Of a DNA stretch of 64,000 bases, positions 27,722 through 49,681 are shown in pieces. A model generated the notes under the pieces. That model searched no databases and was not told where the DNA came from. It was given only the letters and a program-made list of their open reading frames with translations. Origin of the DNA: Streptomyces violaceusniger Tu 4113 (GTDB lineage Bacteria > Actinomycetota > Actinomycetes > Streptomycetales > Streptomycetaceae); NCBI RefSeq assembly GCF_000147815.2, contig NC_015957.1:1488001-1552000 (forward strand), in the 5' to 3' direction. Position numbers and translations under genes: made by a program. Positions within the stretch are counted from its first letter, which is position 1, and the number at the start of each line of letters is the position of its first letter.

Positions 27722-28090
27722 ATGGGCGAGATTCTGGTCGGCACCTGTTCATGGACGGACCGCGCGCTGGTTGTCCAGCGGTTGGTACCCGCCGGGGCTG
27801 CGCGACGCGGAGGGGAGACTGCGGCACTACGCTGCCCAGTTCCCGGTGGTGGAGGTCGACGCCACGTACTACTCCCTGCCCAGCGCCCGTAACAGCGGCC
27901 TATGGACCGAGCGCACTCCGGACGGATTCCGCTTCGACGTCAAGGCGTTCTCCCTGCTCACCGGGCACCCGACAACCCCGAACGCCCTGCCCGCCGATTT
28001 CCGCCCAGCACTGGCCGGACGAAGGGACCACCGGCCGCGGCCCGCAGACGTCGATCCCGGACTGCTCGACGAGGTGTGGCAGCCGTCACG
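27722..28090 (+). pseudogene. DUF72 gene, frameshifted and truncated
   Basis: The opening MGEILVGTCSWTDRAL is the DUF72 start, but the frame then shifts near 27770 and continues in another frame with SSGWYPPGLRDAEGRLRHYAAQFPVVEVDATYYSLPSARNSGLW. The conserved fold ends after LLDEVWQ (about 28080), where unrelated sequence begins. Full DUF72 proteins are about 250-280 residues; only 110 remain. It is a remnant at the left edge of the accessory region. Confidence 0.82.
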
Positions 28091-28405
28091 GACACCTGAT
28101 GGCGTCAAACCGCTCCGGGCTTCGGCCCATCCATACCCGTCGGGAACCAACGGCGCGACCTGCTCTGCACTTCCGTGCCGTGGTCCGCCCGACGGGCTGG
28201 ATGGCTGGGAACATGCGCCGCCCGGATGGGCGATGACAGACCGCCTGGGGAAGCCGGGCGGTCTGCGGTCGGCCGGCTCCGGCTTCCGGACTCTCGGTGC
28301 GGCGGTGGCGGAGGGGCGAGGACCGCTGTTGCGGCGAGGTCCGGGGTGTTGCCAGGGCCTCGACGCCCTCGGCGACGAATCGGCAGGCCGTAAAAGGCTC
28401 GGTGC
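28091..28405. other. non-coding stretch after the DUF72 remnant
   Basis: No gene is supported. A hairpin CAGACCGCC / GGCGGTCTG at 28237-28265 could act as a terminator. The sequence has lower third-position bias than its neighbours and looks like decayed DNA. Confidence 0.5.
28237..28265. terminator. candidate hairpin terminator
   Basis: Perfect 9-base arms CAGACCGCC and GGCGGTCTG around 11 bases, inside the gap between the DUF72 remnant and the MerR gene; no run of T follows. Confidence 0.5.
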
Positions 28406-28771
28406 TCAGCCGGCCCGGTCAGCCACCCGGAAGGGACATCCGGTGCCGACGCGCTCTTCGAGATCGGCCCGCAGAACGGCAAGCTCGGCCATACGCGTGT
28501 CGATGACCCGGATCTTCTCCTCCAACAGCGCAGACAACGCCTCAGCGGCATCCGGCGCGTCGCTCAATTTCTCCCCGTGCTGTGCGATCTCGGCCAGCGA
28601 GAAGCCGAGCGTTTGTGCGGTGCGGACGTAATGCAGCCAAGTCACTGTCTCCGCCGGGAAGTCGCGATAACCATTCGCCAGCCGCTGACCTGCGACGAGG
28701 CCGATCTTCTCGTAGAAACGAATGGTGTCCTTGGTCATACCCGCGTGCGTGGCCAGCTCTCCGATACGCAT
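28406..28771 (-). CDS. MerR family regulator
   Basis: 121 residues. The MerR winged helix is complete (MRIGELATHAGMTKDTIRFYEKIGLV, ANGYRDFPAETVTWLHYVRTAQTLGFSLAEI), followed by the dimerisation helix and a short end with one Cys (GTGCPFRVADRAG). One Cys in this tail could be a sensor, but the metal-binding pair of CueR or the Cys cluster of SoxR is not present, so the signal is open. ATG at 28771 starts the fold. It faces a small membrane gene with a MerR-type promoter between. Confidence 0.9.
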   Translation of the reverse strand: MRIGELATHAGMTKDTIRFYEKIGLVAGQRLANGYRDFPAETVTWLHYVRTAQTLGFSLAEIAQHGEKLSDAPDAAEALSALLEEKIRVIDTRMAELAVLRADLEERVGTGCPFRVADRAG

Positions 28772-30388: not shown

Positions 30389-30517
30389 CGGCATTGGCTC
30401 AGTTGCCGGTGGGTCATGAGGCAGCAGGCCAGTTTCAGGAGCGCTTCGTGGATGTCGGCTCGCTGTTCCCAGCGGACGCGAAGGCGCCGGAAGCCGTGCA
30501 GCCGCCCAAGCCTCCGC
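30377..30517 (-). mobile_element. IS5-family transposase 3' fragment
   Basis: On the minus strand the sequence reads RLGRLHGFRRLRVRWEQRADIHEALLKLACCLMTHRQL and stops at 30377-30379. This is the usual C-terminal end of Streptomyces IS5-type (DDE) transposases, including the ER-x-DIHEA-x-L-x-LACCL block. The rest of the element is missing and no terminal repeats are seen, so it is dead. It abuts a truncated antitoxin gene at about 30518. Confidence 0.75.
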
Positions 30518-30519
30518 GG

Positions 30520-30664
30520 GCTTGTTGAGGTTGCCGCGCTCGATCTGGCGGGCCACGGCCGCGGCGGCGTAGGCGGACAGGCCGGACGGCCGGCTGCGAG
30601 CGCGAGCGGCTTCGGCGATGTCCCGAGGCATCGTGATCGAGTACTTCTGGGTGGGCTCGGAGAT
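30520..30664 (-). pseudogene. truncated copy of the antitoxin gene at 49211
   Basis: The minus strand reads ISEPTQKYSITMPRDIAEA followed by ARARSRPSGLSAYAAAAVARQIERGNLN, nearly identical to the first 47 residues of the intact antitoxin at 49211-49474. The start codon is ATC where the intact gene has ATG, and the coding sequence ends at the transposase fragment. DNA upstream of the start is also related. It is a dead relative of the intact locus, directly after the Wadjet-type jetD stop. Confidence 0.85.
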
Positions 30665-30706
30665 GCCCCTTATGCTACCGCGCATCCTCCAGGCGGCCGT
30701 GAGTTG

Positions 30707-31954
30707 TCAGGGTGCGAGGTCGGTCAGGAGATCGTCGAGGACGGTTTCCTCCTCGATGCGTACGCCGAGTTCGCTGAGGGCGGCCCGCAGGTTCGGGTCC
30801 CAGGGAGCGGTGGCAGGTGTGCCCGTCAGGGATGGTGCCATGGGGCTTCTGCTGGCGGCGGCGCGGTAGTCGACGGTGGTGTAGCGCCAGGGGCGCCAGG
30901 GCACGCGCTGCAGCAAGGCGGCGGCGATGCGTATGCCGCCCCAGTCGAAGTCGCCGTGGTAGAGCAGCCTTGCCCGGTGGGAGTGCAGGTGGCGCAGGAG
31001 GGTGAGGGCGGCGGCCGAGGGCTGGCCCTGGAGACAGATCAGGGGTGGGCAGGCAGGGCCGTAGGTGTCGGCCGCGGTGGCGAGCACGGTCGGGTTCTCG
31101 CAGATGTGCACCACCGGGGGCGTTGTGCGGGGAGGGGTGCGGGTGAGCTGGCGCAGGGTGAGCACGGCGGGTTCCCCGGTGCCGGTGGCCCAGTCGAGCG
31201 CGGGTGTGCCGCGTAGGCCCAGGGTCAGGACGGTGGAGGACAGGGCGTCCTTGAGGAGGCCCGCGGAGGCCCATGCTTCGCGGCGCCACTCGGCTCCGGT
31301 GCCGTCGGGGAAGCCGGTCAGGGCGCGGATGCCGGAGTGGACGAGGGTGGCGAGCGGGGTGCCGTCATCGAGGGCGTGGGCATCGCCGAGGGTGCGGGCG
31401 GCGAAGGCCGGGAGGGAGACGGCCGGATCCGTGGGCAGGCTCCGCAGCGCCGTCGCGGTGGAAGTGAGCAGGGCCCGGGCGGTCTCCGGGCCGCGTGCGA
31501 GGCGGCGGACGAGGCCGCTCACGCGTATGTGCTCGCCCCAGTCGGTCAATTCGGGCCGCTCGGAGCACAAACCGGTGAGCGGGGTGTACGCGTCGTGCCA
31601 GGCGTCCGCCTCCCGCCGGCGTGCGTCGCTGCGGAGGGTGACGGGTCCGGTGAGGGCGATGACGGCGGTGGCGAGGCCATCGGGGCTGATGCCGGAGCGG
31701 CGCAGGATGGTGTCGACGGCGTCGAGCCGGATGCTCAGCGAGCGCCCGCCGCCGGGGGCTCGGCCCAGCAGGCGCTCGACGGCGGCCCGCTCGCCGTCGG
31801 TGGGCGCGGCCAGGATGACCGAGCCGGTGAGTGGCTCGGCGCGTTCCATGCGGCGGCGTATCCGGTCCAGCAGCCAGGCACAGCCCGGATCGCCGAGGAG
31901 ACGGGTGAGGCGCTCGTGGTCGACGTGCCCGGCGGGGGCGTCGGGTGCGCTCAT
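30707..31954 (-). CDS. jetD: Wadjet-type JetD nuclease (TIGR02679, DUF3323/DUF2399, Toprim)
   Basis: 415 residues. An N-terminal DUF3323-like half is followed by a C-terminal Toprim half (DUF2399): the Glu is in VVHICENPTVLATAAD (about 283) and the Asp-x-Asp in LLYHGDFDWGGIRIAA (about 334), as in topoisomerase VI/Spo11-type nucleases. In characterised Wadjet systems JetD cuts plasmid DNA looped by the SMC complex. It is last in the four-gene run, 46 bases after the SMC gene. ATG or GTG near 31954 is the start. Confidence 0.9.
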   Translation of the reverse strand: MSAPDAPAGHVDHERLTRLLGDPGCAWLLDRIRRRMERAEPLTGSVILAAPTDGERAAVERLLGRAPGGGRSLSIRLDAVDTILRRSGISPDGLATAVIALTGPVTLRSDARRREADAWHDAYTPLTGLCSERPELTDWGEHIRVSGLVRRLARGPETARALLTSTATALRSLPTDPAVSLPAFAARTLGDAHALDDGTPLATLVHSGIRALTGFPDGTGAEWRREAWASAGLLKDALSSTVLTLGLRGTPALDWATGTGEPAVLTLRQLTRTPPRTTPPVVHICENPTVLATAADTYGPACPPLICLQGQPSAAALTLLRHLHSHRARLLYHGDFDWGGIRIAAALLQRVPWRPWRYTTVDYRAAASRSPMAPSLTGTPATAPWDPNLRAALSELGVRIEEETVLDDLLTDLAP

Positions 31955-32000
31955 GTGAGGGTCTTCCCTTTCCTCTCCACGGGCGGTCCTGCGTCACGTC

Positions 32001-35000
32001 TCAGGCCCACAGGGCGTCCTGGCCGGGTGCGGGGTTCTCGGTGGGGGTGGGCTCGGGCTCTCCGGGGGAGTGTGCCGGTGCGAGGACCGTCGCCAGGCGG
32101 CGGTCGGGTTCGGGGGCCCGTGCCCGCTCGGCGCCGTCCCACTGCCAGCGGGTCACCAGGACCGCGGCGATGTCGTCGACGCGGGAGAGCTGCGCGATGG
32201 CGATGCCGGGCACTTGCGGGTAGCAGGCCCATTCACGCTCGCTGGTCATCACCACGTCCAGGTCGAAGGCGTGGAGCAGGCCCAGGCACTTGGCGCGGGA
32301 GTCGTCGTCGACGCCGGCGAAGGCTTCGTCCAGGGTGACCAGGCGCGGGGCGTGTGGAGCGGCGGTGGCGTAGTGAGCGGAGGCGGCGGCGAACAGGGGT
32401 ACGGAGACGGCCAGGACGCGTTCGCCGCCGGAGGCGGGCCCGGTGGCGGGCACCCATGTGCCGTGCTGGTGGCGTTCGATGCCGAATTCGTGCCAGGCGC
32501 GGTAGTCGAGCGCGGTGGTGAGCACTTCCAGCCAGCTGCCTGTGGCGTTTTCGGCCTGCGCGCGGGCAATCTGGACTTGCAGAAACTCGCCGACCGCCGC
32601 CCGGTCCTCGGCCGCCCAGGCGTCGGCGGACTGGCGCAGCCGTGCCCGCGCCTGTGCCAGTCCGGCCGGTGCCTTGCGGGAGGGCCGCCAGATCAGGCGC
32701 AGCTTCATGCCGGTGGAGGTGGGCCGCTGCTCAAGTTCGGTGTTCATGGCGTGTACCTGGCGCTCGGCAGTGTCGATCAGCTCCTGCAGGGTGCCGGCGA
32801 CCTCGGTCAGCAGGTGGGTTTCCAGGATTTCGCGTTCGTGCGCCGACAGTATGCGGGTCAGCTCCTGGACCTCGGTGGCCAGGGCCCCGGCCAGTTCGGG
32901 CACGGCCCGCCCGTGGCCCTGGTAGACGAGGTCGACGATCATCCCGTCCTCGGTCATGCGCGCCGTGGCGCTGTGGCCGCCCCGGGAGAGGACGTCCTGG
33001 AGCTTCTTGTACTCCTCGCTGAGCCGCTTCTGCACGCGTTCCCAGGCGCCCTCGGAGTCGTCCGTACCCGACAGTGCCGCCTCGATCGCCCGGGCGAGCC
33101 CGATCGCCGGGGTGGCGGCCCAGGATCCGCCGTCCAGCGGCGGTACGGGAGCCTCGGGCAGAGCGACGGTCAGCAGGCCGGTGGCCGCGAACCGCTGGAG
33201 CGCGGCGATGGCCTCGGCGCGCGTGGCCGCCGCTTCATGGACGTCCTTGTCCAGCTGCTCGATACGGCCCTCGGCGCGGCCGGCGCGGCGATCCGCGGCG
33301 GAGTACTCGTGACGGGCCTGCTTCTGGTCCCGCTCGCATGTGGCGAGGGCACCCGCGGTTTCGGCCAGACGGCGCTCCAGCTCGGCGACAGCCGCGCCGA
33401 CGGTCGAGCGGAGAGTGGTGTGGTGTTCGTCCGCGGCGGCGGCGAGCCGGGCCGCCTCGGCCATACGCTGGTCCAGTTCGGCCACCCGTTCCCCGGTCCG
33501 GCCGGCTTCCGCCTGCTCGTCGGCGACAGCGCGTCGCGCCTCGGCCCGGTCGCGCAGGGCCGGCCACAGGGCGGCGAGGGCGGCCGTGTGGTCGGCCAGG
33601 GCCTGGCGGACGGCCGTGAGGGCCGGTCGGTCGGCGGGCAGGTTCACGGCGTCGGCCGTCTCGGTGAGTGCGGTGGCCGCTTCGGCCTCGCGGCGGGCCG
33701 CCTCGGTGAGTTCGGCCGCGCGTTCCTCCTGGCGGGTGCGGGCCCGGTGGGCGGCGTCCGCCGCTGCGGCGGCCACCGCGTGGGCGTGGCGCAGGGGGGC
33801 GTCGTCGGGGACGGCGGCCAGTTCGGCGTCCAGGGTGCGCCGGCGCGCGGCCACCGTGGCGCGTTCGGCTTCACGGCGTGCCGTGCTGGCGGCCAGGGCG
33901 TCCAGTTCGCCGCGCAGGGTGCCGATCCGGGCGCGGCGTGCTTCCTCGCGGGCGCCTTCACCCACGTACACGGCCGCCTCCTTCGACCAGCTGCCGGTCA
34001 GCGCGCCGATGCGGAAGTGACCGTCCGCCGCCACCCACGTGCCGGGTGCACCGGTATCCCCGAGACCGACGGCCGCCAGGAGAGCGGACACGGCCGGTTC
34101 ACCGACCTGCGTGGCCCGGGGATCGCCGTGGTCGACGGCGGGCCGCAGCGCGTCGGCGAGCACGGAGCCGGCCGGCGACGCATGCGAAGGCAGCGGGGAC
34201 AGCAGCACGTCGTGCCCGCTCGCCTCCAGCATGGTGCCGTCCGGGCACACCCACGCGTCCAGGAGCCCGGACGCCTCCAACGCGGCCTCCAGCCCCGCCC
34301 GTTCGTCCGGAGTGACGTGGTCGTGGAAGTCGATCAGCTTCCACAGAGGCGCTCCGGGAGTCCGGTCGCGCAGGCCCGGGGTGCGGGTGCGGGGTGCCTC
34401 CGGCCCGTGCTGGCCACCGGCCTCCAGCTCCGCCAGCTCCCTTTCGGCCGCGGTGCACCGCTCGGCCAGTTCGGCCAGCCGGTGGCCGAGTGCGGCGGCC
34501 TGGTCGGCCAGGTCCGCGGCCTGCCCGCGGTGGGCTGCCGCGGGCTGCTCCCGGGCGGGGCTGGGGCCGTGCAGATGCGTGCCCCAGTCGTGCAGAGCGT
34601 CCAGGAGCCCCGTCGGGTCGGGAAGGTCCAGTTCCGTGCACCGGTCGAGGTGTTCGCGTACGGCACCCACCAGGTCTTGGCCCGCCTGTGTGGCGGACGC
34701 CTCCGCCTGGGCCTGGCGTTCGGCGGTGTGGGCGGCCTCGGTCTGGGCCTCGTCCAGGCGGCGGGCGGCGGCCCGCCGTTCGCGGGCGGCCTGTTCGGCC
34801 CCCGCGGCCAGCTCCTCCACGTGGTCGAGGGTCCGCCTCCGGCGTGCCACCGACTCCTCGGCCGCGTGGCGCAGTTCCGCCTCCGGGACCGCGTCGTGGG
34901 GCCCCAGCACGTCGTCGAGCCGGGCCGCCCGGGCCGTCTCCCCTGCCTGGCGCAGCGTGTTCCCGACCTGCTGCTCGGCCGCTGCCAGCCGCCCTTCGGC

Positions 35001-36146
35001 GCCCGTCAGGCGGCCGAGGGCGCGGGAGTTCGCCTGGGCGGCCTGGTCCCGGTCCGTCTCCGCTCGGGCCCGCTCGCCGGCGGTGCGCCGCGCATCGGCC
35101 GCCGCCTGCTCCAGCTTCCGGGCGCTGCGCATCTCCGGACCCGCGCGCAGCGCGGCGTCCTGGGCCGTCAGCCGCACGGACGTCTCCTCCAGCTGGGCGA
35201 TCCGCTCCGCGGCCTCCGCCCGTTGCCGCTCGGCCTCCTCCCGATCGGTCCGCGCCTGGGACAGGTCACGGTGCAGCTGTTCGTAGCGGGCGTGTTCGCT
35301 GCGCGGCAGCCGGGCCCGCCGACGGGTGGCCACGCGGGCGTAGCGGCGGTAGTGGTCGAGGAAGGCGGAAGCGGCCCGTTCGGCCTCACCGGCCGCTCGC
35401 AGTTCCTCCTTCTCCTCGTCCAGGGAGCGGAACGCCTCGGCCACATCGGCGATCACCGCCTGGTCCATGGGCGGCAGCGCCTCGGTCAGCGCGCGGGACA
35501 GCGCCGTCTCATTGGGGCGCTTGGACAGCTGGGGCTGGCGCAGCTGGATGAGCAGGTCGACCAGGGCGGCGTAGCGCCGCTCGCCGAGCCCGAACAGCGC
35601 CTCGTCGACCGCCCGGCGGTACGCCTTCGCCTGGTCGTAGACCATGCCGCGTGCGGCGACGGCCTCGGCCAGGCGATCCCGCGACAGCGCGGTGCCGGTG
35701 GCGTCGAGCAAGGTCAGCTCCTCACCGACGCGCTGGTCGGTGACCGCGTACCAGTGGCGGGCGATGCCGCGGCCCGCTACCGCTTTCAGCCCGCACAGCA
35801 GCGTGCGGAAGTGCGCCTGGCCCGAGTCCTGGTCGCGGCGGCCGAATTCGATCCAGGTGTAGCCGAGCCGCTCCGGGTGCGGGTGCCGGCCGCCGAGCAG
35901 CAGGTTCCACTCCATGCGCTTGCCCGGGTCGGCGTCGGGTTCCACCCGGCGGGCGGACAGGTCGCCGTCCAGGAGGAAAGGCAGGGTCAGGGCGAGCACC
36001 TTGGACTTGCCGGTGCCGTTGTTGCCGCGCAGCAGCAGGCGGCCGTCACGGAACCAGAACTCCTCCGTGTCGTAATGGAAGAGGTCGACCAGGCCGATGC
36101 GCAGCGGCTGCCACCGGCCGGGTGTCGGGTCGGGCAGGGCGGTCAC
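32001..36146 (-). CDS. jetC: Wadjet-type JetC SMC-like ATPase (TIGR02680)
   Basis: 1381 residues. P-loop GNNGTGKSK at 41-49, long Glu/Ala/Arg coiled coils in the middle, ABC signature SGGERVL (about 1239) and Walker B RLVTLDEAF (about 1268) with a terminal TSEREW. This is the head-coil-hinge-coil-head plan of condensin-like MukB/JetC proteins that extrude DNA loops. GTG at 36146 overlaps the previous stop by 4 bases. With jetA, jetB and jetD it completes the TIGR02677-02680 cassette. Confidence 0.93.
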   Translation of the reverse strand: MTALPDPTPGRWQPLRIGLVDLFHYDTEEFWFRDGRLLLRGNNGTGKSKVLALTLPFLLDGDLSARRVEPDADPGKRMEWNLLLGGRHPHPERLGYTWIEFGRRDQDSGQAHFRTLLCGLKAVAGRGIARHWYAVTDQRVGEELTLLDATGTALSRDRLAEAVAARGMVYDQAKAYRRAVDEALFGLGERRYAALVDLLIQLRQPQLSKRPNETALSRALTEALPPMDQAVIADVAEAFRSLDEEKEELRAAGEAERAASAFLDHYRRYARVATRRRARLPRSEHARYEQLHRDLSQARTDREEAERQRAEAAERIAQLEETSVRLTAQDAALRAGPEMRSARKLEQAAADARRTAGERARAETDRDQAAQANSRALGRLTGAEGRLAAAEQQVGNTLRQAGETARAARLDDVLGPHDAVPEAELRHAAEESVARRRRTLDHVEELAAGAEQAARERRAAARRLDEAQTEAAHTAERQAQAEASATQAGQDLVGAVREHLDRCTELDLPDPTGLLDALHDWGTHLHGPSPAREQPAAAHRGQAADLADQAAALGHRLAELAERCTAAERELAELEAGGQHGPEAPRTRTPGLRDRTPGAPLWKLIDFHDHVTPDERAGLEAALEASGLLDAWVCPDGTMLEASGHDVLLSPLPSHASPAGSVLADALRPAVDHGDPRATQVGEPAVSALLAAVGLGDTGAPGTWVAADGHFRIGALTGSWSKEAAVYVGEGAREEARRARIGTLRGELDALAASTARREAERATVAARRRTLDAELAAVPDDAPLRHAHAVAAAAADAAHRARTRQEERAAELTEAARREAEAATALTETADAVNLPADRPALTAVRQALADHTAALAALWPALRDRAEARRAVADEQAEAGRTGERVAELDQRMAEAARLAAAADEHHTTLRSTVGAAVAELERRLAETAGALATCERDQKQARHEYSAADRRAGRAEGRIEQLDKDVHEAAATRAEAIAALQRFAATGLLTVALPEAPVPPLDGGSWAATPAIGLARAIEAALSGTDDSEGAWERVQKRLSEEYKKLQDVLSRGGHSATARMTEDGMIVDLVYQGHGRAVPELAGALATEVQELTRILSAHEREILETHLLTEVAGTLQELIDTAERQVHAMNTELEQRPTSTGMKLRLIWRPSRKAPAGLAQARARLRQSADAWAAEDRAAVGEFLQVQIARAQAENATGSWLEVLTTALDYRAWHEFGIERHQHGTWVPATGPASGGERVLAVSVPLFAAASAHYATAAPHAPRLVTLDEAFAGVDDDSRAKCLGLLHAFDLDVVMTSEREWACYPQVPGIAIAQLSRVDDIAAVLVTRWQWDGAERARAPEPDRRLATVLAPAHSPGEPEPTPTENPAPGQDALWA

Positions 36147-37408
36147 GACTGCGGTGCCTTTCGCTTGAGTGTGTGGGGCGTGCGAGGAACACGGGGTGTG
36201 CGGGAGGAAGCCTGTCCCGGTTCCGTCACGACGGTCTCGCCGACCGCGTACCGCGCGAGCGCGGGCAGCGGGACGATGCCCTTCGGGGTGGCGGCGACCA
36301 GGCCGAGCGCGGTGAGCCTCTCCAGCGCCTGGCCGACCAGCTCCGCCTCCGCGCCGGGCTGTTTGGCGCTCTTCGACCAGAACGCACCGTGTTCGGCGGC
36401 CAGCTCCTGAACCTTGCGCTCGAGGTCGGCGCGGCTCACCCCGCCGTCCATGGCCGCCAGGTGTTCGGCGACCAGCAGGGTGACGTGCCCGTGCGTGCCC
36501 TGCTCCGGCATTCGTACGTCGGTCAGATCGTCGTGCGGATCGACCATGGCGACGCCCTCGGCCCGCACCTCGGGAACCAGGCCGGTCAGTTCCGTGATGC
36601 GGGCGGTGAGGAAGGCGCGTTGGCGGGTCAGGTAGACGAGTTCCTCGTCGGTCAGCTCCTCGTAGTACAGCACCGGGTCGTCCAGCAGCCTCCGGGTCAG
36701 CCGCTGGCGGATCGCGCGGAACCGGAGCTCGTCGCTGTCCAGCGCGCTCTCGGCGGTCAGCTCGGCCAGCCGGTCCTCGAAGTCCTCGGTGATGATCGTC
36801 GACGGACCCCGGCGGGCGGCCAGCAGCCCGGCCAGGACGCGCCGCTGCACGTCGTAGAGCACGTCGCCGCTACCGCTGACGTATGCCTCCTCCTCACCGG
36901 CCACCCGCCGCAACACTCCATAGCGCAGCAGCAGCCGCACCACCGCCGCCAGATCCAGGCGTTCGTCGCGGCGCTCCATGGTGAACTCCACCCCGGCGGC
37001 GGCCAGGTGGGGATCGGCGGCGTCCAGCACCACCTGCTCGGCCAGGCGGCCCAGGGCGATCTGCGCCTCACCCCGCTCCAGCGCGGCCAGCGCCAGACAC
37101 AGCAGCACATACCGGCGGCGCGTGAACGCGACGCGGCCACGGGACGCCTCGCGCGCCGGATGGGTGGGATCGGCCAAGGTGCCGGGCGTCCGGGCCAGCC
37201 GGGCGGCCTCCGCATCCACCCGCAGCGACCAGCCGGTGTTGCGGTCGAACCAGTCGCGCAGCTCCGAGGCGTGCTGCCGCACCAGCCGGAACTCGTCCGC
37301 GTGCGGGCCCCGCGCCAGCAACAGCGGCTCCTTCAACAGCGTCCGGGCCGCCTTGTGTACCTCGGCCGTTCGCCGGCCGTCCAGCACCTCGCCCAGGGGC
37401 GTGGTCAT
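36143..37408 (-). CDS. jetB: Wadjet-type JetB (TIGR02678, DUF2398)
   Basis: 421 residues matching the TIGR02678/DUF2398 plan: RRTAEVHKAARTLLKEPLLLARG near the start, FTRRRYVLLCLALAALERGEAQIALGRLAEQV, and LTDEELVYLTRQRAFLTARI. In Wadjet-like complexes this position is the KITE-type subunit that binds the kleisin-like JetA and the SMC protein. It starts about 10 bases after the jetA stop. Confidence 0.88.
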   Translation of the reverse strand: MTTPLGEVLDGRRTAEVHKAARTLLKEPLLLARGPHADEFRLVRQHASELRDWFDRNTGWSLRVDAEAARLARTPGTLADPTHPAREASRGRVAFTRRRYVLLCLALAALERGEAQIALGRLAEQVVLDAADPHLAAAGVEFTMERRDERLDLAAVVRLLLRYGVLRRVAGEEEAYVSGSGDVLYDVQRRVLAGLLAARRGPSTIITEDFEDRLAELTAESALDSDELRFRAIRQRLTRRLLDDPVLYYEELTDEELVYLTRQRAFLTARITELTGLVPEVRAEGVAMVDPHDDLTDVRMPEQGTHGHVTLLVAEHLAAMDGGVSRADLERKVQELAAEHGAFWSKSAKQPGAEAELVGQALERLTALGLVAATPKGIVPLPALARYAVGETVVTEPGQASSRTPRVPRTPHTLKRKAPQS

Positions 37409-37417
37409 GGCTCCCCC

Positions 37418-39007
37418 TCAATCGTCTCGGCCGGTGCGTGGCCGTCCCGCGCGGCCGGGTCGGGTGAGGTCGGTGATCTCGATCAGGTGGTCGGGGCCGC
37501 GGAAGGTCCCGCCCGGCGTACGGATTTCGGCCGTCGTCCCGTCGGCGAGAGCCGTCAGCCGGATCTCCAACGAGCCGTCGTTGCTGGTCGCCACCGTGTT
37601 CGTCATACCGGGTCGCCACGTGGCCAGGGCATCGCCGAGCAACTGCAAGAACAGCCCGAAGGCCGCCGGGTCGAGTTCTCCCAGCGCGGACAACCGTATG
37701 GTGTCGTCCGTCGCGAGCCGGGCACGGGCGGCGGCGATCTCCTCCGCCTGCCTGGCGGCGATCTCGGCGAGCCGGTGTCGCTGCTCGGAGCGGTCCTGCA
37801 CCCGGCGGGCCCGCCCGCGGCGTTCGTAGCTGCCGGTACGGCGCAGTTGCGGGCTGATCCGCAGCGGCTCGGCCTCGGCCCACGACATGGACGCGGGCAC
37901 CGGGCGGGCCGTGCGCTCGGCCAGGGTATCGGCGTCCACGGTCAGATGACGCGCGGAGTACAGACCGAAGGCGGCGCGCCACAGCCGGTGCCGCGCCTCG
38001 TCGTCCGGGGCCTCGGCGAACCAGCGGGCCAGGGTACGGAAGTCCGCGGACCGGTCCGAACGCCCGGCCCGCCGCTCGTTCAACTGCCTGACAACCGCGA
38101 GGAGTTGCGGGATCGCCCCGAGGGCCCGCCCGCGCAGCAGCCGGGCCTGCGACTCACGGCCGTCCGCGGAGATGAACCAGGCGGTGAGCCCCGACCACTT
38201 CGCCGCCCACCGCTCATACGCCTGCTCCTCGGCGCTTTCGGTGTCCTCGGGCGCGGCGTCGGCCGCCTCACGGGCCGCCGCCAGCCGCAGCAGCACACCG
38301 GCCCGCCCGTCCTGCTCCAGCTCGCCGATGAGCACCGCGATCCGCCCGCCCAGCGTGATCAGGTCCTGGATGAACCGCTCCAGGTACTGGATCAGCCGGT
38401 CCTTGTAGGCGAGGAACACCTCGACCTCCACACCGTGCAGATCCATGGTGCGCTGCAGCGACCCCATGAACGCCCGCGCGTTCTCCGCCAGCGCCTTGAA
38501 CCGGCCCGTCAGCGCCGACAGCGCCAGATGCGCCTTCGCCGCGTCCGGCCCGCCCTCCTCCCGCTCGGCCGCGATCACCAGAAGGGCCCGCAGCTGCGTG
38601 ACGATGTCGTGCAGTGCCACCGCCTGCAGCGCACCGCGCCGCCCCAGCGCCTCGTCGTACACCGACAACGCCTGCTCGGCGGCCTCCCCGGCCTGCGTGA
38701 GCTGGTAGATGAACCGCTTGCGGTAGAAGTCCTCGACCGCGGTGACCCGGGAGGTGTCCGGATCCGCCCGCAGATTGCCCCACTCCACGAGGCTGTCCAG
38801 AGCCTTCACCACCGCGTCCGGATCCGTCGGCCGGTGCTCCGGCGGCAGCGCGGCATGCACGTCCTCGGGCCGCAGATGCACCGCGAACCGCTCCTTCGCC
38901 GCGAGGAACGCGCACATCACCTGACGGTACAAGGCCGCGTTCGGCACGGTCAGATGGATGAACGGCGCGTGCTCGCTGCCGCGCGGACCGGAAGCTGGTG
39001 ACGTCAT
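37418..39007 (-). CDS. jetA: Wadjet-type JetA (TIGR02677, DUF2397)
   Basis: 529 residues of the TIGR02677/DUF2397 family: FIHLTVPNAALYRQVMCAFLAAKERFAVHLRPEDV is the family's opening block, with a winged-helix-like N-terminus and helical middle (about 120-300), as expected of the kleisin-like subunit. The true start is the ATG at 39007, since upstream reading frame is unrelated; the start is followed by MTSPASGPRGSEHAPF. It is first of four genes with 10-base and 4-base spacings. A palindrome and direct repeat at 39046-39089 lie just upstream. Confidence 0.88.
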   Translation of the reverse strand: MTSPASGPRGSEHAPFIHLTVPNAALYRQVMCAFLAAKERFAVHLRPEDVHAALPPEHRPTDPDAVVKALDSLVEWGNLRADPDTSRVTAVEDFYRKRFIYQLTQAGEAAEQALSVYDEALGRRGALQAVALHDIVTQLRALLVIAAEREEGGPDAAKAHLALSALTGRFKALAENARAFMGSLQRTMDLHGVEVEVFLAYKDRLIQYLERFIQDLITLGGRIAVLIGELEQDGRAGVLLRLAAAREAADAAPEDTESAEEQAYERWAAKWSGLTAWFISADGRESQARLLRGRALGAIPQLLAVVRQLNERRAGRSDRSADFRTLARWFAEAPDDEARHRLWRAAFGLYSARHLTVDADTLAERTARPVPASMSWAEAEPLRISPQLRRTGSYERRGRARRVQDRSEQRHRLAEIAARQAEEIAAARARLATDDTIRLSALGELDPAAFGLFLQLLGDALATWRPGMTNTVATSNDGSLEIRLTALADGTTAEIRTPGGTFRGPDHLIEITDLTRPGRAGRPRTGRDD

Positions 39008-39045
39008 CGTCCCGGCATTCTTCCCGACACGTACACCGGGGCGGA

Positions 39046-39089: not shown

Positions 39090-39551
39090 GGGACGCCCTG
39101 CCGCTGACACGTCACACCCCGCATGCGCAGAGCGACCGGTCGCTCGCAGACCACACCGACCTCCCACCGAGAGCACGATGACACGACGTACCTCTTCGGC
39201 AGCCGGCTCCGCCCCCAGAAACATCGCCGGCCACGAAGAAAACCGTACGGCGCACCACTGACAAACCCGGCGGACACAGCACGACCGCCGCCGCGTGCGG
39301 GAGGTGAGGGCGCGGCTCGCCCACGTCCGCGCTCAGATCCTGATGACGGTGACCCGGCTGCCGCACAGCGCGGCGAGGTCTTCGGGATCCCTTCCTGACC
39401 AACACCCGCACCTGGTTTCCCAGCGGTCACGGAACGCGCCGTCAGTGCCCCCCGCGCGCCCCCCGTGCGCACTGAGTCGGCCCATTCACCTCCAATAAGG
39501 CTGTGTCTGCGGTGATCCACCGCCCGAGACCACAGCCTGTAGGGGGACAAG
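39090..39551. other. gap between Wadjet and restriction genes
   Basis: No intact gene is supported. It contains the toxin-tail remnant at 39333-39389 and the two divergent promoters. A locally A/T-rich patch lies at about 39485-39505, before the restriction gene start. Confidence 0.5.
39333..39389 (-). pseudogene. remnant of the toxin gene's 3' end
   Basis: The minus strand encodes DPEDLAALCGSRVTVIRI then stop, matching the last 18 residues of the intact PIN toxin at 48801 (DPEDLTALCGGRVTVIKT). Homology stops on the 5' side, so only the tail survives, 326 bases before the Wadjet-type operon. Confidence 0.8.
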
Positions 39552-42500
39552 GTGCCGGAGGAGTGGATACGGGCTCTCGTGGCAGACTTCGGATCCGAGT
39601 GCAGGGAGCGCCTGCGGGTCAGCGACACTGAGGCATCCATCAGCCCGCCGGTGGTGAAGCTGGTGGAGACTTCCGGGGCACGCTGGAAGCTGAGTCCTCG
39701 CCTTCACCCTGAGTACCCCTTGCCCGAGGCCCGGGTGCGTCCGGACTACGCGGTGGAGACCTCGGGGCGAATCGCTGGCTTCCTGGAGCTCAAGGCCCCT
39801 GGACACGACGTCACGCCCGACGGCTTCACGAAGCGAGACCGCGAGCAGTGGGAGCTGATGCGCCGACTGCCCAACGTGCTGTACAGCAACGGCCACACTT
39901 GGTGCCTGTACCGAGGCGGTTCGCGGCCTCTCCGCACGGTCCGGCTCGACGGTGATCTATACCGGTCCGGCAGCCGGTTGCGTACCCGTGAAGCCGACGG
40001 CGCGGCGTTTCGGGATCTGCTCCGGGATTTTCTCGGATGGCAACCTCAACGCATCACCACTGTGAGTCAGTTGGTGACGTCCATCGCTCCACTGTGCCAG
40101 TACCTGCGAGAGGAGGTGCTGGAGCAGCTTGCCCTCGAACGCAGAGCACCGGACGGCCCCCGCAGTCGGCGGCGTGTTCCCAAGCCCTTCACCGCTCTCG
40201 CGCATCACTGGAGCAAGGTGCTCTTCCCCTCGACCGATGGGCAAGACCCCGACCACCTCTTCGCCGACCGCTACACCCAGACGATCGCCTTCGCCCTGCT
40301 GCTGGCCCGTATCGAGAACGTACCGCTCGCCGACCGGAACTTCGTTGACGTTGCACGTGAGTTGAAGGCCGAGAACACGGTCATGGGCCGAGCCCTGCAG
40401 TTGCTGACGGAGACGGTAGACGCAGAGTTCGCCCGCCGTATCGACACGCTCGTGCAGGTCATCGACGCTGTCAACTGGGAGGCGATCCGAGCTCAGAAGC
40501 CCGACGCCCACGTTCATCTCTACGAGAATTTTCTCCAGGAATACGATCGCGAGCTGCGTAAACGCTCCGGCACGTATTACACTCCGCCCCGCCTCGCGAG
40601 GGAGATGGTCCGCCTCACGGACGCCGTACTGCGCACCCGACTGGGTTGCGTGGAGGGGTTCGCCGACGAGCAGGTGACGATCGTCGACCCCGCCATGGGC
40701 ACCGGCACATTCCTCAGCGAGATCATCGACAGGGTCGCCGAGGAGCGCTCCCGCCGCGGGGAGGGCTTCCGCGGCGAAGCGGTGGAACAGTTGGCGGGCC
40801 GACTGATCGGCTTTGAGCGCCAGATGGCTGCCTACGCGGTCGCGCAGATGCGGATCACCCAGACCCTCCGCGAGCAAGTCACCGACACTCAACTCGGCGA
40901 TTTGCGGCTCCATCTCGCCGACACCCTCGCAGACCCCTACGAGAGGGCCACGCTCTTCACGTTCCTGCCCGATGGTGATCCTCTGGTCGAGAACACCCGC
41001 AAGGCGGACTGGATCAAGCGTGAGCAGAAGGTCACCGTCATGATCAGCAACCCGCCGGATCGAGAGAGAGCCGAGGGTGAGGGCGGCTGGGTGGAGAAAG
41101 GCCACGAGGGCGACGACAGAGCGCCTCTGCTGGATGACTTCCGCCTCGGTGGCAGAAACGGAGTGCACGAGAATAAACTCAAGAACTTGTATGTCTACTT
41201 CTGGCGCTGGGCCACCTTCAAGGTCTTCGAACAGCATCGTTCCGAGTCGGACCGCGGAATCGTCGCCTTTATCAGTACCGCGGGCTTCCTCAGTGGCCCT
41301 GGTTTCCGGGGGATGAGAAAGTACCTACGTGAGACTTGTTCGGAGGGCTGGATCATCGACCTTAGCCCGGAGGGCATTCAGCCGCCGATGCGGACACGCC
41401 TCTTCGAAGGCGTCCAGCAGCCACTGGCGATCGCCGTGTTCGTCCGCAGCAGGGCGGACACCGAACTCGCCCACATCAGGTACGTCGCCCTGGACGGAAG
41501 CACCCGTGAGGAGAAGTACGCGCAGCTCGAGGCTCTTGAGCCGGACAGCCACCAGTGGCGGTCGGTGCGCCAGGACGCCCAAGCCCCGTTCACGCCCACC
41601 GCACGAGGAGCATGGGACACATACCCCGCATTGGGTGACCTGCTGCCATGGACTGTGCCCGGCATCTTGCCGAAGCGGACGTGGGTCTACTCCCCGGACT
41701 CTGACACGCTGCGCTCCCGATGGCGAAGGTTGACCGCCGAGACGGACATTGCCGAGAAGCGTGCCTTGTTCAGGGAGACCCAGAGCCGTACCGTCGACCG
41801 GCAGGTCAAGCCCCTCCCAGGGGCAACACAGCGACGGGGGTCGATGCTGGAGGCGGTCCCCGAGTGCCCGGAACCGGTACTTTTCGCGTTCCGTCCCTTC
41901 GATCGGCAGTGGATCATCCCGGACAACAGGGTCCTCGATAGATGCTCGCCGGAGCTATGGGAGAACCGGGCCGAGGGGCAAATACACATCGTTGAGAAGC
42001 ACTCCGGACGTTTCGGCGACGGCCCCGCCACGCTGTTCACCGCGCTGATGCCGGATATGGATCACTTCGCTGGCTGGGGCGGTGGCAGGGTGATCCCTCT
42101 CTTGCAGAAGGATGGCACCCCCAATGTGGTTCCCGGCCTTCTCCAGCACCTTCGTAACTCCTATGGTGGTGTGCCTGTCACCGCCGAGGACCTGGCCTCG
42201 TACATCGCCGCGATCACGGCCCACCCCGGTTTCCGCTCCCGCTTTGACGACGAACTCACCACCAACGGCGTCCGCGTACCGGTCACCGGTGACGCCGCCC
42301 TGTGGTCGGAGGCGCTGCATGTCGGGCGGAAGGTGATCTGGGCCTCGACCTTTGGAGAGAGGCTCGTGGACCCGGTGGCGGGGAGGCCCGGTGGGTCTCG
42401 GGGTGTCTGGACGACCGCGCAGCCGGCGATCACGTACCGGAGGCAGGTCGGTGGGGACGAGCTACCCGATGGCTTCGTCCACGATCCCGACGGTCTCGAA

Positions 42501-43019
42501 CTCCATTTTGGCCAGGGAGCCTTCGGGCCGGTGACTCAAAAGATGCGGGAGTACCAGGTCAGCGGACAGAACGTTCTCGACGGCTGGTTGAAACGCCGGA
42601 CCGGGCCGCCGTCACGCAGGGCCGTCAGCCAGCTGGACCGCATCCGGCCCGACCGGTGGTGCCCGGCCTGGAGCGAGGAACTTCAGCATGTGCTTGCCGT
42701 CCTGTGGCATCTGGTCGAGCTGCAGTCGGCTCAGGACGAGCTGCTCGACGGTGTCCTCACGTCACCGCTGGTCAGTGTTGCCGAGCTGCAGCGTCGGAAC
42801 GTCCTGCCCGTCCCTGACACCGCACGTCGTTCCGCTCCCGCACCGACACAGGCCGACCCCATCCCCGGTACCGAGGGGATCGAGGCGCGCGAGCCGCACG
42901 CCGTCAGGCCACTCACCGCGGAGAGGGGCTCACCGGCCACCGATCCGATGAGGCGGCCACGGAGGAGTCGGAACTCCGACGCTACGCAGGCACCCCGCAG
43001 GAAGCGACAAGATCCGTAG
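39552..43019 (+). CDS. single-chain restriction-modification enzyme (type IIG/ISP-like) with altered motif IV
   Basis: 1155 residues. An N-terminal PD-(D/E)XK-like nuclease shows Asp65 (VRPDYAVE) and Glu79-Leu-Lys81 (FLELKAPG). The adenine methylase domain has motif I DPAMGTGTFLSEI (about 380) and motif IV SNPPD at 499-503, where this family has NPPY followed by RERA. The C-terminal third should recognise DNA. There is no helicase domain. GTG at 39552 follows AGGGGGACA. Whether it still methylates is uncertain because motif IV lost its aromatic residue. It lies between two toxin-gene remnants. Confidence 0.88.
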   Translation: MPEEWIRALVADFGSECRERLRVSDTEASISPPVVKLVETSGARWKLSPRLHPEYPLPEARVRPDYAVETSGRIAGFLELKAPGHDVTPDGFTKRDREQWELMRRLPNVLYSNGHTWCLYRGGSRPLRTVRLDGDLYRSGSRLRTREADGAAFRDLLRDFLGWQPQRITTVSQLVTSIAPLCQYLREEVLEQLALERRAPDGPRSRRRVPKPFTALAHHWSKVLFPSTDGQDPDHLFADRYTQTIAFALLLARIENVPLADRNFVDVARELKAENTVMGRALQLLTETVDAEFARRIDTLVQVIDAVNWEAIRAQKPDAHVHLYENFLQEYDRELRKRSGTYYTPPRLAREMVRLTDAVLRTRLGCVEGFADEQVTIVDPAMGTGTFLSEIIDRVAEERSRRGEGFRGEAVEQLAGRLIGFERQMAAYAVAQMRITQTLREQVTDTQLGDLRLHLADTLADPYERATLFTFLPDGDPLVENTRKADWIKREQKVTVMISNPPDRERAEGEGGWVEKGHEGDDRAPLLDDFRLGGRNGVHENKLKNLYVYFWRWATFKVFEQHRSESDRGIVAFISTAGFLSGPGFRGMRKYLRETCSEGWIIDLSPEGIQPPMRTRLFEGVQQPLAIAVFVRSRADTELAHIRYVALDGSTREEKYAQLEALEPDSHQWRSVRQDAQAPFTPTARGAWDTYPALGDLLPWTVPGILPKRTWVYSPDSDTLRSRWRRLTAETDIAEKRALFRETQSRTVDRQVKPLPGATQRRGSMLEAVPECPEPVLFAFRPFDRQWIIPDNRVLDRCSPELWENRAEGQIHIVEKHSGRFGDGPATLFTALMPDMDHFAGWGGGRVIPLLQKDGTPNVVPGLLQHLRNSYGGVPVTAEDLASYIAAITAHPGFRSRFDDELTTNGVRVPVTGDAALWSEALHVGRKVIWASTFGERLVDPVAGRPGGSRGVWTTAQPAITYRRQVGGDELPDGFVHDPDGLELHFGQGAFGPVTQKMREYQVSGQNVLDGWLKRRTGPPSRRAVSQLDRIRPDRWCPAWSEELQHVLAVLWHLVELQSAQDELLDGVLTSPLVSVAELQRRNVLPVPDTARRSAPAPTQADPIPGTEGIEAREPHAVRPLTAERGSPATDPMRRPRRSRNSDATQAPRRKRQDP

Positions 43020-43102
43020 AGCTGTTGCCTGACTCGGTGTCATGGGTGAGTTCGTCGGGGCGCCGTCCGTGGGAGGGCTGACCTGACCCGGCCTTGTGTG
43101 TG

Positions 43103-43225
43103 AGGTCTTGACGACGGTGACGCCTTTGCCGCACAGAGGGGGAAGGCCTCCGGGGCGGAGGCGAGCACGGTGGCTGGCGCAGGCTTGGCGATGGCGTCGA
43201 TGGCAGGCCTATGGCCGTGCGGGCC
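43103..43225 (-). pseudogene. degraded 3' part of the PIN toxin gene
   Basis: On the minus strand one frame reads GPHGHRPAIDAIAKPAPATV, then LASAPEAFPL, and another frame ends LCGKGVTVVKT; together they follow the intact toxin's C-terminal part (LHGHKYAIDAM ... ALCGGRVTVIKT) with small deletions and a frameshift. The stop codon is also lost. It is a dead copy in the same orientation as the intact toxin at 48801. Confidence 0.8.
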
Positions 43226-43414
43226 GGTCGCCGCACGTGATCGACGGATCCGCCTTGCGGCTTTCTGGCCCACGTATGTCCCACAGAAATTGGATTTTGC
43301 GGAATCGTGCGATTGGGATTTCGTTCCCCTGGCGATGGGAAAACCCCTGATCAGGGCCATGAGGGCTCGAGTGGGGACGGCCGAACAGGCCGTGTGTTTT
43401 GGCATGCGCAAGAA

Positions 43415-43448
43415 AGGCCCTGGCAAGCGTTTCTGCTGGTCAGGGCCT
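43415..43448. terminator. hairpin terminator
   Basis: AGGCCCTG / CAGGGCCT perfect arms around an 18-base loop containing GCAAGCGTTTCTGC. Similar hairpins end operons in Streptomyces integrative elements; the local gene it serves is unclear. Confidence 0.6.
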
Positions 43449-43723
43449 AGGTTTCCGGTGCCCCCGGCGAAATGCTCGTCACATGGGGATGCACCGAACC
43501 ATCGATGCCCGGTGAGCTGGTGATCCAGACCGCCTTCCGGGCGACGGTGAATCGAGCTCGCACGTAGCCGACCGGCGCTCCGACCGCACGGGGAGCCGCC
43601 CCTGACGGCTTCCATGCCACCAGCCCGGCGGCTCGGCCGTGGGGCGACCCCCTCACCTATGGGTGTGCCCCCGGATACAGTGGGTAGCCACAGCGTGCTC
43701 GACCACCTCGACCGGAGGCAGAC

Positions 43724-43993: not shown

Positions 43994-44621
43994 TCTCCTC
44001 GCCCCCGTTCTCGTTCCCGAGCAGGGCGATCGGCTCACCCGCACCGCCTACAAGCAGGACTTCCGGCAACGGGAGGACGCGGTCCGTAACGGGAGTTCCT
44101 GGAAGCTGGAGCGCCGACAGCACTTCGAGGAGCAGGGCAGTCCGAGCCGGGACGCCCTGCGCCGGGGTGACTGGGAGGAGGCGCTTCGGCTCCTCGCCGA
44201 CCGGCGCGACACCTTGGCCGCGACCGCTCAGGAGGACGAGCGCAGGGGGTATGCCTTTCACCGTGTGCGGGTGGTCGAGAGTCCACTGACGCCGTATGTG
44301 CAATGGGAACTCCACTCCCAGCGGCAGCGTGCGCAGTACGGGCAGCGGATCAGGGTCGTTCCGGCCGAACAGGTGGCCGCCTCGGAGGACAGCGGCCCGC
44401 TTCCGGAAGTGGTTGTGCTGGGCGGCCGCACCCTCTTCCAAGTCGTCTACACCGAAGCAGGAGTTGCGAACGGCGCGATCCGCTTCACCGACCGTGATCT
44501 TGTCGAGCGCTGGGAGAACTACATCAAGGCGCTCTACGCGGTGGGTGAAGAGGTGATCTCCTACTTCGACCGTGAGGTGGCGCACCTTGAGCCGCCGACG
44601 CTGGGCGCGGGAAGGGAGTAG
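43986..44621 (+). CDS. DUF6879 family protein
   Basis: 211 residues: YKQDFRQREDAVRNGSSWKLERRQHFEE, HRVRVVESPLTPYVQWELHSQRQRAQYGQRIRVV and RFTDRDLVERWENYIKALYAVGEEVISYFDRE are the DUF6879 blocks. The family is typical of Streptomyces, often beside STAND or helix-turn-helix genes, and its function is unknown. ATG at 43986 starts inside the preceding gene. The next gene begins within this one or just after it. Confidence 0.85.
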   Translation: MLDLLAPVLVPEQGDRLTRTAYKQDFRQREDAVRNGSSWKLERRQHFEEQGSPSRDALRRGDWEEALRLLADRRDTLAATAQEDERRGYAFHRVRVVESPLTPYVQWELHSQRQRAQYGQRIRVVPAEQVAASEDSGPLPEVVVLGGRTLFQVVYTEAGVANGAIRFTDRDLVERWENYIKALYAVGEEVISYFDREVAHLEPPTLGAGRE

Positions 44622-47043
44622 GCCGATCACATCGCCAGGCGGACAGGACGAGCACTTCGGTAGCACCCACTCCGAGCTGTCGGGATCCTCACGTGACGTC
44701 GTCCAGGCGAGAAGTGTGCACGGAGGCATCCACTTCCACGCGCGGGGCACACCGGACGCGGGGGGTTCCTCCAGCCCCATCCCACGCCAGTTACCGGCCG
44801 ACGTGGGCGGATTCGTCAACCGAACCGATGAGCTCGGCCAGTTGAATGCCGTCCTCACCACCGAGGACGGCGATCCGCTCGTCGTTTCGGTATACGTGAT
44901 CGCCGGCACCGCCGGCGCCGGAAAGACATCGTTGGCACTGCGCTGGGCGCACCAGGTCCGGGAGCGTTTCCCGGATGGCCAGTTGTACGCCAATCTGCGC
45001 GGCTACGACCCCGGAGAGCCGGTCGCGGCACGCGAGGCCCTGCACCGCTTGCTGACCTCGCTCGGTGTCCAGCCCGAAGCCGTACCGCAGGATCTCGACG
45101 CGGCCGCCGCGTTGTACCGCTCGTTGCTGGCCGACCGCCGGGTACTGGTGGTCCTGGACAACGCGGCCACCGTCGGCCAGGTCAGGCCGTTGCTGCCGGG
45201 GAGCGCACACAGCCTGGTGCTGGTCACCAGCCGCAGCCGCCTGTCCGGCCTCGCCGTCCGCGACGGGGCCCGCCGGCTCACGCTCGGCGTGCTGCCGGAG
45301 CCGGAGGCGGTTGCCCTGCTGCGCGTCGTCACCGCGGGATACCGGCCGGTCGATGACGAACGGCAGCTCGCCGAACTGGCCCAGTTGTGCGCACGACTTC
45401 CGCTCGCCCTGCGGATAGCCGCGGAACGCGCCGCCAGTCACCCCCACCTACGGCTGGACGACCTGATTGCCGACCTACGCGACGAATCGGCCCTCTGGGA
45501 CGCCCTGAGCACTGGCGACGACGAGGAAGCCGAAGCGGTCCGCACCGTCTTCGCGTGGTCCTATCGCGCCCTGTCCGAGCAAGCCGCCCGCCTGTTCCGC
45601 CTGCTGGGCCTACACCCCGGACCCGAATTCGGGCTGCAGGCAGCGGCGGCCCTGGCAGGGTCGGCCAGCACCAGTCGGTCCCGGCAGTCGCTGGACTCTC
45701 TGGTCGGTGCACACCTCCTGGAACAGACCGCCCAGGACCGCTACCGGTTCCATGACCTGCTGCGTGCCTACGCCATCGACCAGGCCCAGCACGAAGAGCC
45801 GCCGGCCGAGCGGGAGCCAGCTCTGCGCCGCGTGCTGGAGTGGTACCTGCACACCGCCGATGCCGCGCAGAGCTGGATCAACCCCGCCGAGGATCGCGTG
45901 CCCCTCACCCCTGCCCCGGACGACGTCAGCCCGCTGACGTTCTCCGAGTACGACGCCGCCGTGGACTGGGCCGAGCGGGAGCACGACAACCTCATCCAAG
46001 CAGTGCGTACGGCGGCCGACGCCGGCCATGACCGACTGGCGTGGCAGTTGGCCACAGTGCTGTGGAACGCGCAGTTCCCCTCCGCCTCGGGCACAAGCTG
46101 GCCGGCCGTGGGCCGCATCGGGCTGGAGGCAGCCGAACGCCTGGGGGAACGCGCTGCACAAGGCGCACTCCACACCTACCTCGGCATGGCCTACACCCGC
46201 ATCAACCGCCAGGCCGAGAGCCTCGAATCCCACGAGAGCGCGCTGACGATCCGGCGCGACCTGGACGACCGCCTTGGCGAAGCACGCTCACTCAACCTGA
46301 TCGGGCTGAACCATCTCCGCGGCAGACGACTCGACTCCGCTGCCCGCTACTTCGAGCAGGCCATCTCCGCCTTCCAGGACCAGGACGCCGCCCACTGGGC
46401 CGCCACGGGGATGTCCAATCTCGCGACCACCCACTACCGCGCAGGGCGGCTTCCGGCGGCGGCGACCGTCATCGACCAGGTCCTGGCAGCGCACCGGGCC
46501 CTCGGCGATCAGCGCGGCGAGGGCAACATCCTCCGTGTGCTGAGCGACGTCCAACGCGAACGGGGCGACGTCGAGGCATCCCTGGTCTCGGCCCAGGCCG
46601 CCCTCGACATCGCTCTCAGCCTCCGTAACCTCCGCCTGGAGGGCTTCTGGCTGCTGACCCTGGGCGATGCTCAGCAGGCGAACGGCCAGTACGCCGAGGC
46701 CCTGACCTCCTACCAGCGGTCCGCCACACTGCACCGGCGCCTCGCCGACCGCAGCCGAGAGGCGCTGGCCTGGCAGGGCGTGGGCGAGGTCTACCGCCGC
46801 CTTGGACGTCAGGCGGAGGCGGCCGACTTCCACCGCCAGGCTGCCTCGACGCACCGCGATCTCGCCGATGCGTGGCACCAGGCCCTGGCCCTCGACGGCC
46901 TGGCCTCGGCCGTACTCGGCGAAAGCCCCGAAGAAGCCCACCGACACTGGAGACTGGCGCTGCGGCTTCTCGCCGACTTCGGAGATCCTCGCGCAGTGGT
47001 GGTCCGGGAGAGAATCCAAAGTCGGCTGACAGAAACAAGCTGA
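44572..47043 (+). CDS. STAND NTPase with TPR repeats (NB-ARC type)
   Basis: Up to 823 residues. A short head with RDVVQARSVHGGIHFHARG, seen in Streptomyces NB-ARC proteins, precedes the NTPase: P-loop GTAGAGKTSLALRWA (about 111), Walker B RVLVVLDNA (about 190), and LVTSRSRLSGL. A winged-helix stretch (about 330-400) and TPR repeats (about 520-820) follow. Leu74 is a TTA codon (44791). The GTG at 44572 or TTG at 44587 overlaps the DUF6879 gene; the true start is uncertain but must precede the RDVVQARS block. It resembles AfsR-like regulators without the DNA-binding domain. Confidence 0.88.
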   Translation: MRWRTLSRRRWAREGSRPITSPGGQDEHFGSTHSELSGSSRDVVQARSVHGGIHFHARGTPDAGGSSSPIPRQLPADVGGFVNRTDELGQLNAVLTTEDGDPLVVSVYVIAGTAGAGKTSLALRWAHQVRERFPDGQLYANLRGYDPGEPVAAREALHRLLTSLGVQPEAVPQDLDAAAALYRSLLADRRVLVVLDNAATVGQVRPLLPGSAHSLVLVTSRSRLSGLAVRDGARRLTLGVLPEPEAVALLRVVTAGYRPVDDERQLAELAQLCARLPLALRIAAERAASHPHLRLDDLIADLRDESALWDALSTGDDEEAEAVRTVFAWSYRALSEQAARLFRLLGLHPGPEFGLQAAAALAGSASTSRSRQSLDSLVGAHLLEQTAQDRYRFHDLLRAYAIDQAQHEEPPAEREPALRRVLEWYLHTADAAQSWINPAEDRVPLTPAPDDVSPLTFSEYDAAVDWAEREHDNLIQAVRTAADAGHDRLAWQLATVLWNAQFPSASGTSWPAVGRIGLEAAERLGERAAQGALHTYLGMAYTRINRQAESLESHESALTIRRDLDDRLGEARSLNLIGLNHLRGRRLDSAARYFEQAISAFQDQDAAHWAATGMSNLATTHYRAGRLPAAATVIDQVLAAHRALGDQRGEGNILRVLSDVQRERGDVEASLVSAQAALDIALSLRNLRLEGFWLLTLGDAQQANGQYAEALTSYQRSATLHRRLADRSREALAWQGVGEVYRRLGRQAEAADFHRQAASTHRDLADAWHQALALDGLASAVLGESPEEAHRHWRLALRLLADFGDPRAVVVRERIQSRLTETS

Positions 47044-49474: not shown

Positions 49475-49621
49475 GCCACTGATCCTACCAACTATGCCCC
49501 CTCTCTCTGGCGATCCAAGGATGCCGGGGAGAATGCTGCAACAAGGGGAGCGCCTGAGGGGGTTGCAGTTTCGGGGCGCTTGGACCCTGTTGGCGCCGGG
49601 GCGCAAGTCGGCTTGCGCACG

Positions 49622-49663: not shown

Positions 49664-49681
49664 ATCGGGCACTCGCTTGAG

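Follow-up and report, generated by a model that had tools for sequence, protein, structure and literature searches.

Which defense system, if any, do four consecutive genes of Streptomyces violaceusniger Tu 4113 encode, and is the set complete? The genes lie in a 64,000-nucleotide stretch of contig NC_015957.1 (referred to here as the window; positions 1,488,001 to 1,552,000 of the 10.66-Mb contig, in a genome of 11.14 Mb), and all positions below are those of the window unless another locus is named. An original prediction, made from the sequence letters and a list of open reading frames, had described a Wadjet-type plasmid defense cassette of four same-strand genes at 30707 to 39007. We found all four frames there, in the order jetA, jetB, jetC, and jetD on the minus strand (Table 1). 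At a probability of roughly 95%, we consider them a complete chromosomal Wadjet type II operon. The operon is complete and probably working, as well as ordinary for Streptomyces. Wadjet type II is an established system that many genomes of this genus carry, and the structure of a relative has been solved (PDB 9qe0).

The proposed families stood up to profile searches. In NCBIfam, JetA matched TIGR02677 with 551.7 bits (cutoff, 165.85), JetB matched TIGR02678 with 372.7 bits (cutoff, 124.65), JetC matched TIGR02680 with 1218 bits (cutoff, 462.85), and JetD matched TIGR02679 with 339.7 bits (cutoff, 196). Pfam agreed, with DUF2397 in JetA, DUF2398 in JetB, SbcC_Walker_B in JetC, and DUF3323 plus DUF2399 in JetD. 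The best PADLOC models were JetA2 (E = 3.6e-207), JetB2 (E = 4.9e-151), JetC2 (E = 0; 1510 bits), and JetD2 (E = 1.8e-149), each aligned across nearly the full protein length. With NCBIfam E values of 2.2e-101 to 0 and best PADLOC E values of 1.8e-149 to 0, chance is excluded. Models of type I were weak for JetC (E = 5.4e-9) and JetD (E = 1.2e-4 or weaker), and no type I PADLOC model was matched by JetA or JetB at E values up to 0.001. As the best PADLOC model was type II for each subunit, we assign the system to Wadjet type II and reject membership of type I on profile scores. The earlier suspicion of a type other than type I was thus correct, and the suggested profile check against PADLOC returned the corresponding type II subunit for every protein and no unrelated family.

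The four genes are separated by 9 bases (jetA-jetB), a 4-base overlap (jetB-jetC), and 46 bases (jetC-jetD), as calculated from the coordinates, and by this spacing they form one operon-like run on a single strand. The jetA frame stays open upstream as far as 39640; we placed its start at the ATG at 39007 because positions 14 to 514 of the 518-position JetA2 profile align to residues 9 to 517.

We then compared the operon with 80 loci that encode JetD relatives in named genomes (the best 80 of 283 relatives). The motif counts include the window's own protein and cover 74 JetC and 81 JetD sequences. Walker A, the signature, and the aspartate and glutamate of Walker B are identical in 74/74 aligned JetC sequences, among which two positions of the Walker B strand vary once each (V/I and T/M). 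JetD residues E286, D335, and D337 are identical in all 81 aligned sequences, and the C-terminal EEE is identical in 80, with a gap in the remaining one. The description of a 1,381-residue JetC with intact P-loop, signature, and Walker B and of a Toprim protein with intact acidic residues therefore holds, and none of the SMC or Toprim catalytic residues has been lost in the window proteins.

A tblastn search of the 80 loci recovered JetC and JetD in all of them, JetB in 74, and JetA in 73; where JetA, or both JetA and JetB, were missing (seven loci), the locus starts at most about 150 bases from the first gene found. JetD frames reached at least 90% of the length of the window protein in 80/80 loci, JetC frames in 73/80, JetB frames in 73, and JetA frames in 70. 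Five of the shorter JetC frames are cut by locus ends, and two (L091 and L097) are short. One JetD (L098) is interrupted by a stop codon at residue 60, and the remaining in-frame stops sit near natural ends. The jetD gene lies downstream of jetC in all 80 relatives, at a distance of at most about 0.5 kb, except in L052 (about 3.9 kb). The best named JetD relatives are those of S. rugosispiralis and S. coffeae (94% identity), S. samsunensis (93%), and S. hygroscopicus (89%). An operon that has decayed or fallen silent, with intact frames that are not expressed or assembled, is extremely unlikely here: the broken pieces in its flanks (vapB-like sequence, a partial copy, 3' of jetD; vapC-like sequence 5' of jetA; and, by eye, a stretch resembling an insertion sequence [IS]) and the damaged relatives L091, L097, and L098 contrast with four window frames of full length with intact catalytic residues, and with JetA to JetD proteins that are each 93 to 97% identical (best segment), in the same gene order, in S. 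rugosispiralis (L042), S. coffeae (L043), and S. samsunensis (L107).

Table 1. Features of the Wadjet type II operon and its neighborhood (window positions)
Feature	Position	Strand	Description
jetA (type II)	37418..39007	-	TIGR02677/DUF2397; predicted kleisin subunit; 529 aa from ATG at 39007
jetB (type II)	36143..37408	-	TIGR02678/DUF2398; predicted KITE subunit; 421 aa
jetC (type II)	32001..36146	-	TIGR02680 SMC-like ATPase; 1381 aa
jetD (type II)	30707..31954	-	TIGR02679, DUF3323 + DUF2399; predicted CAP + Toprim nuclease; 415 aa
JetC Walker A GNNGTGKS	36003..36026	-	Residues 41-48
JetC signature ASGGE	32421..32435	-	Residues 1238-1242
JetC Walker B LVTLDE	32325..32342	-	Residues 1269-1274, with D1273 and E1274
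JetD Toprim CENP with E286	31091..31102	-	Residues 285-288
JetD Toprim GDFD with D335 and D337	30944..30955	-	Residues 334-337
JetD C-terminal EEE	30746..30754	-	Residues 401-403
Large type ISP/IIG-like restriction-modification enzyme	39552-43019	+	Divergent from jetABCD; Pfam Type_ISP_C; PADLOC REase_MTase_IIG, E = 1.5e-268
NB-ARC/TPR protein	44572-47043	+	Related to HaaT and AfsR models, below cutoffs; preceded by a DUF6879 protein
Beta-protein (PF14350)	47345-48478	+	Weak PADLOC PD-Lambda-2_C match (9.4e-11)
vapBC-like pair	48801-49474		Beside tRNA-Arg(ccg); vapC by PIN match, 27.0 bits (cutoff, 23.6)
tRNA-Arg(ccg)	49681-49753

We examined how widely the JetD-type domain PF09664 is distributed. 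Among 199 Streptomyces genomes, including that of the window, 85 had a match at an E value of ≤0.001 and 82 had a match above the cutoff. An order-level draw, mostly of the same genus and partly overlapping the first, gave 38 of 99 genomes. Since these matches include weak and partial ones, the counts are best taken as maxima for complete type II operons. In a published survey, 42% of actinobacterial genomes were reported to carry Wadjet, versus 7% of others (PMC10482375). JetD had no match in 50,697 phage records and 19 matches, all below 60% identity, in 72,556 plasmid records. Of the 19, 18 were on records of at least 177 kb, and the remaining one (72.7 kb) covered 28% of the query. The bias toward big plasmids fits self-avoidance, but large plasmids also hold more genes, and we therefore draw nothing from it. 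A literature search on six family names returned nothing related, which says little, as its coverage was partial and such names are possibly seldom printed.

By the total-extrusion model of Wadjet action, as outlined in a review (PMC10586767), JetA (kleisin), JetB (KITE), and JetC (SMC ATPase) would together make up a loop-extruding motor that works as a dimer. Having reeled in the whole of a small DNA circle, the two motor units would stall against each other, at which point the JetD Toprim nuclease would cut; linear DNA and circles of very large size would be spared. From work on other Wadjet systems, we infer that the window proteins may likewise assemble into a complex, extrude loops, sense the size and shape of DNA, cut plasmids, and lower plasmid uptake by the host. 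Host resistance to plasmid establishment, in particular, is a fair prediction from the families involved. In a study on Clostridium cellulovorans, a native Wadjet system is described as blocking plasmid transfer (PMC12287153).

A Wadjet complex with JetA, JetB, and JetC chains has been solved (PDB 9qe0 and 9qe1), and these were the sole Wadjet entries matched by sequence, through JetC and JetA. JetC matched the 9qe0 JetC (E = 4.8e-73; 1,371 residues against 1,381 here) over residues 8 to 323, 588 to 749, and 1085 to 1344, of which 588 to 749 align to residues 594 to 745 of the 9qe0 protein, and JetA matched over residues 18 to 463 (E = 3.1e-28). The JetB profile reached the 9qe0 JetB with an E value of 0.45, and the single JetB sequence had no match in PDB. 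These entries presumably represent nvJET, the type II Wadjet complex from Neobacillus vireti LMG 21834, although the PDB matches name neither organism nor type; nvJET is reported to cut circular DNA and to have a hinge without a central channel (PMC12647877). The two systems are distant in sequence and, if the organism is as we take it to be, come from different phyla; activity has been reported for nvJET and is predicted for the window copy.

The predicted JetD model has a CAP plus Toprim-like fold and, in fold comparison, resembled a Corynebacterium glutamicum nuclease (8b7f), topoisomerase VI-A, and Spo11. These structural relatives came from fold comparison alone: the JetD sequence matched no PDB sequence at E values up to 1, and a JetD alignment found no relative among PDB sequences, only one unrelated chain (E = 0.96). 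We take 8b7f to be the MksG nuclease, whose metal residues are given as E236 and D279 (PMC10123090). By motif, JetD E286 and the D335/D337 pair are likely the counterparts of these residues. Two tyrosines, Y298 (tyrosine in 22/81 sequences) and Y332 (80/81), lie between E286 and D335; neither was assigned as the counterpart of MksG Y258. The window JetD model shares its CAP plus Toprim-like arrangement with type I Wadjet and MksBEFG systems, whereas all four window subunits score best with type II models.

Several observations weigh against a functional type II defense system. Foldseek TM-scores between the JetD model and 8b7f were only 0.28 to 0.31, and the comparison with Pseudomonas aeruginosa JetD (7til; VIA Z, 6.8; root mean square deviation, 16.0) was no better than those with generic Toprim proteins. 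Model confidence for JetD was low, at 53 to 68 per block from residue 331 on, including D335 and D337 (it fell below 50 at residues 399 to 404, in the C-terminal EEE region). The AlphaFold model of JetB failed, with a mean predicted local distance difference test score of 47.4, and the KITE assignment therefore rests on family profiles. Finally, deletion of a type III Wadjet system in Cupriavidus necator left electroporation and plasmid stability unchanged (PMC12645576); hence, an operon may be intact without producing a visible phenotype. The same deletion, together with the contribution of P. aeruginosa MksBEF to chromosome organization (PMC10586767), would suit an intact type II homologue that serves chromosome organization or repair instead of plasmid defense, like MksBEF without JetD. 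We regard this as very unlikely, given that the operon includes a jetD gene that retains its acidic residues, that jetD invariably follows jetC among the 80 relatives, and that the JetD-type domain has a patchy distribution in the genus (82/199), which suits an accessory defense gene over a housekeeping one.

If the operon is indeed a plasmid defense system, it predicts poor establishment of small circular plasmids, and deletion of jetABCD may ease genetic work in this strain. Streptomyces often carry linear replicons, which makes the genus well suited to finding out whether linear and very large plasmids escape Wadjet type II in vivo. The genome has two other contigs, of 290,055 and 191,151 bases. 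The circle-size limit of Wadjet is put at roughly 50 to 100 kb, mostly from work on type I, in the review cited above (PMC10586767). Both contigs exceed this limit, which fits the prediction but is no test of it, and the assembly may lack small plasmids.

The less usual feature of the operon is its setting: it sits among other likely defense genes, in a defense island that adjoins a tRNA-Arg gene and has vapBC-like toxin-antitoxin pieces where its modules meet. The island contains a direct repeat of 156 bases (30524-30679 and 49334-49489; 81% identical, 18.8 kb apart). The copy at 30524-30679, 3' of jetD, is a vapB-like gene in truncated form; the other is part of the vapBC-like pair, in which vapB is so labeled by position, as no antitoxin family matched. 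Further vapC-like pieces (39333-39389 and 43101-43227) flank the restriction gene. That gene had no match in the S. rugosispiralis, S. coffeae, and S. samsunensis loci, each of which extends about 2.5 to 2.9 kb past jetA. In S. coffeae, only about 355 bases, at a joint (L043:2232-2643) that holds one vapC-like piece, separate the counterparts of window positions 39389 and 43483; the gap is about 0.2 kb in S. samsunensis (39379 to 43477) and about 2.2 kb in S. rugosispiralis (39387 to 43639). The spacing of the joint in these three relatives therefore indicates that a cassette came or went beside vapC-like pieces in this group. Beyond jetD, the S. rugosispiralis and S. samsunensis loci have vapB- and vapC-like matches that are close to full length. 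Tentatively, the tRNA-Arg(CCG) island might consist of defense cassettes (Wadjet II, the type ISP/IIG enzyme, and the beta-protein/NB-ARC group) joined at vapBC-like copies, with recombination between copies swapping cassettes and the toxin-antitoxin pair acting as both glue and exchange site. We consider this scenario rather unlikely; vapB- or vapC-like matches occurred in 6 of the 80 Wadjet loci (L042, L043, L090, L106, L107, and L112), which counts against the generality of vapBC joints. For the beta-protein, no PD-Lambda-2 partner was listed among the ten frames given to PADLOC.

Two other arrangements were considered. A hidden fifth operon gene was not accepted: in L045 (80% JetD identity), similarity is confined to 30706-39042, and the same six loci carry vapB- or vapC-like matches, although this is a weak test, as most loci reach about 3 kb upstream of jetA. 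Nor did we adopt the vapB-like repeats as the boundaries of one mobile element, since they are 81% alike and Pfam scans of a chosen subset of neighboring frames found no integrase.

The tRNA-Arg(ccg) gene is part of a region (49681-51598) that also holds a response-regulator gene and nrtL (ArgS-related; NF045898 above the cutoff). Among the matches listed, genomes G007, G009, G027, and G028 have vapBC-like DNA on the contig of this locus and at most 70 kb from it; in G004 and G012 it is far from this locus, and the other listed matches fell on different contigs. Adjoining the truncated vapB-like copy, the stretch at about 30390-30520 resembles, by eye, the terminal part of an IS-type transposase. 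The DUF72 gene at 27771-28631 (plus strand) looks truncated (profile positions 1 to 69 of 217), and in S. rugosispiralis (L042:12364-16715) the parts matching this gene are about 3.9 kb apart.
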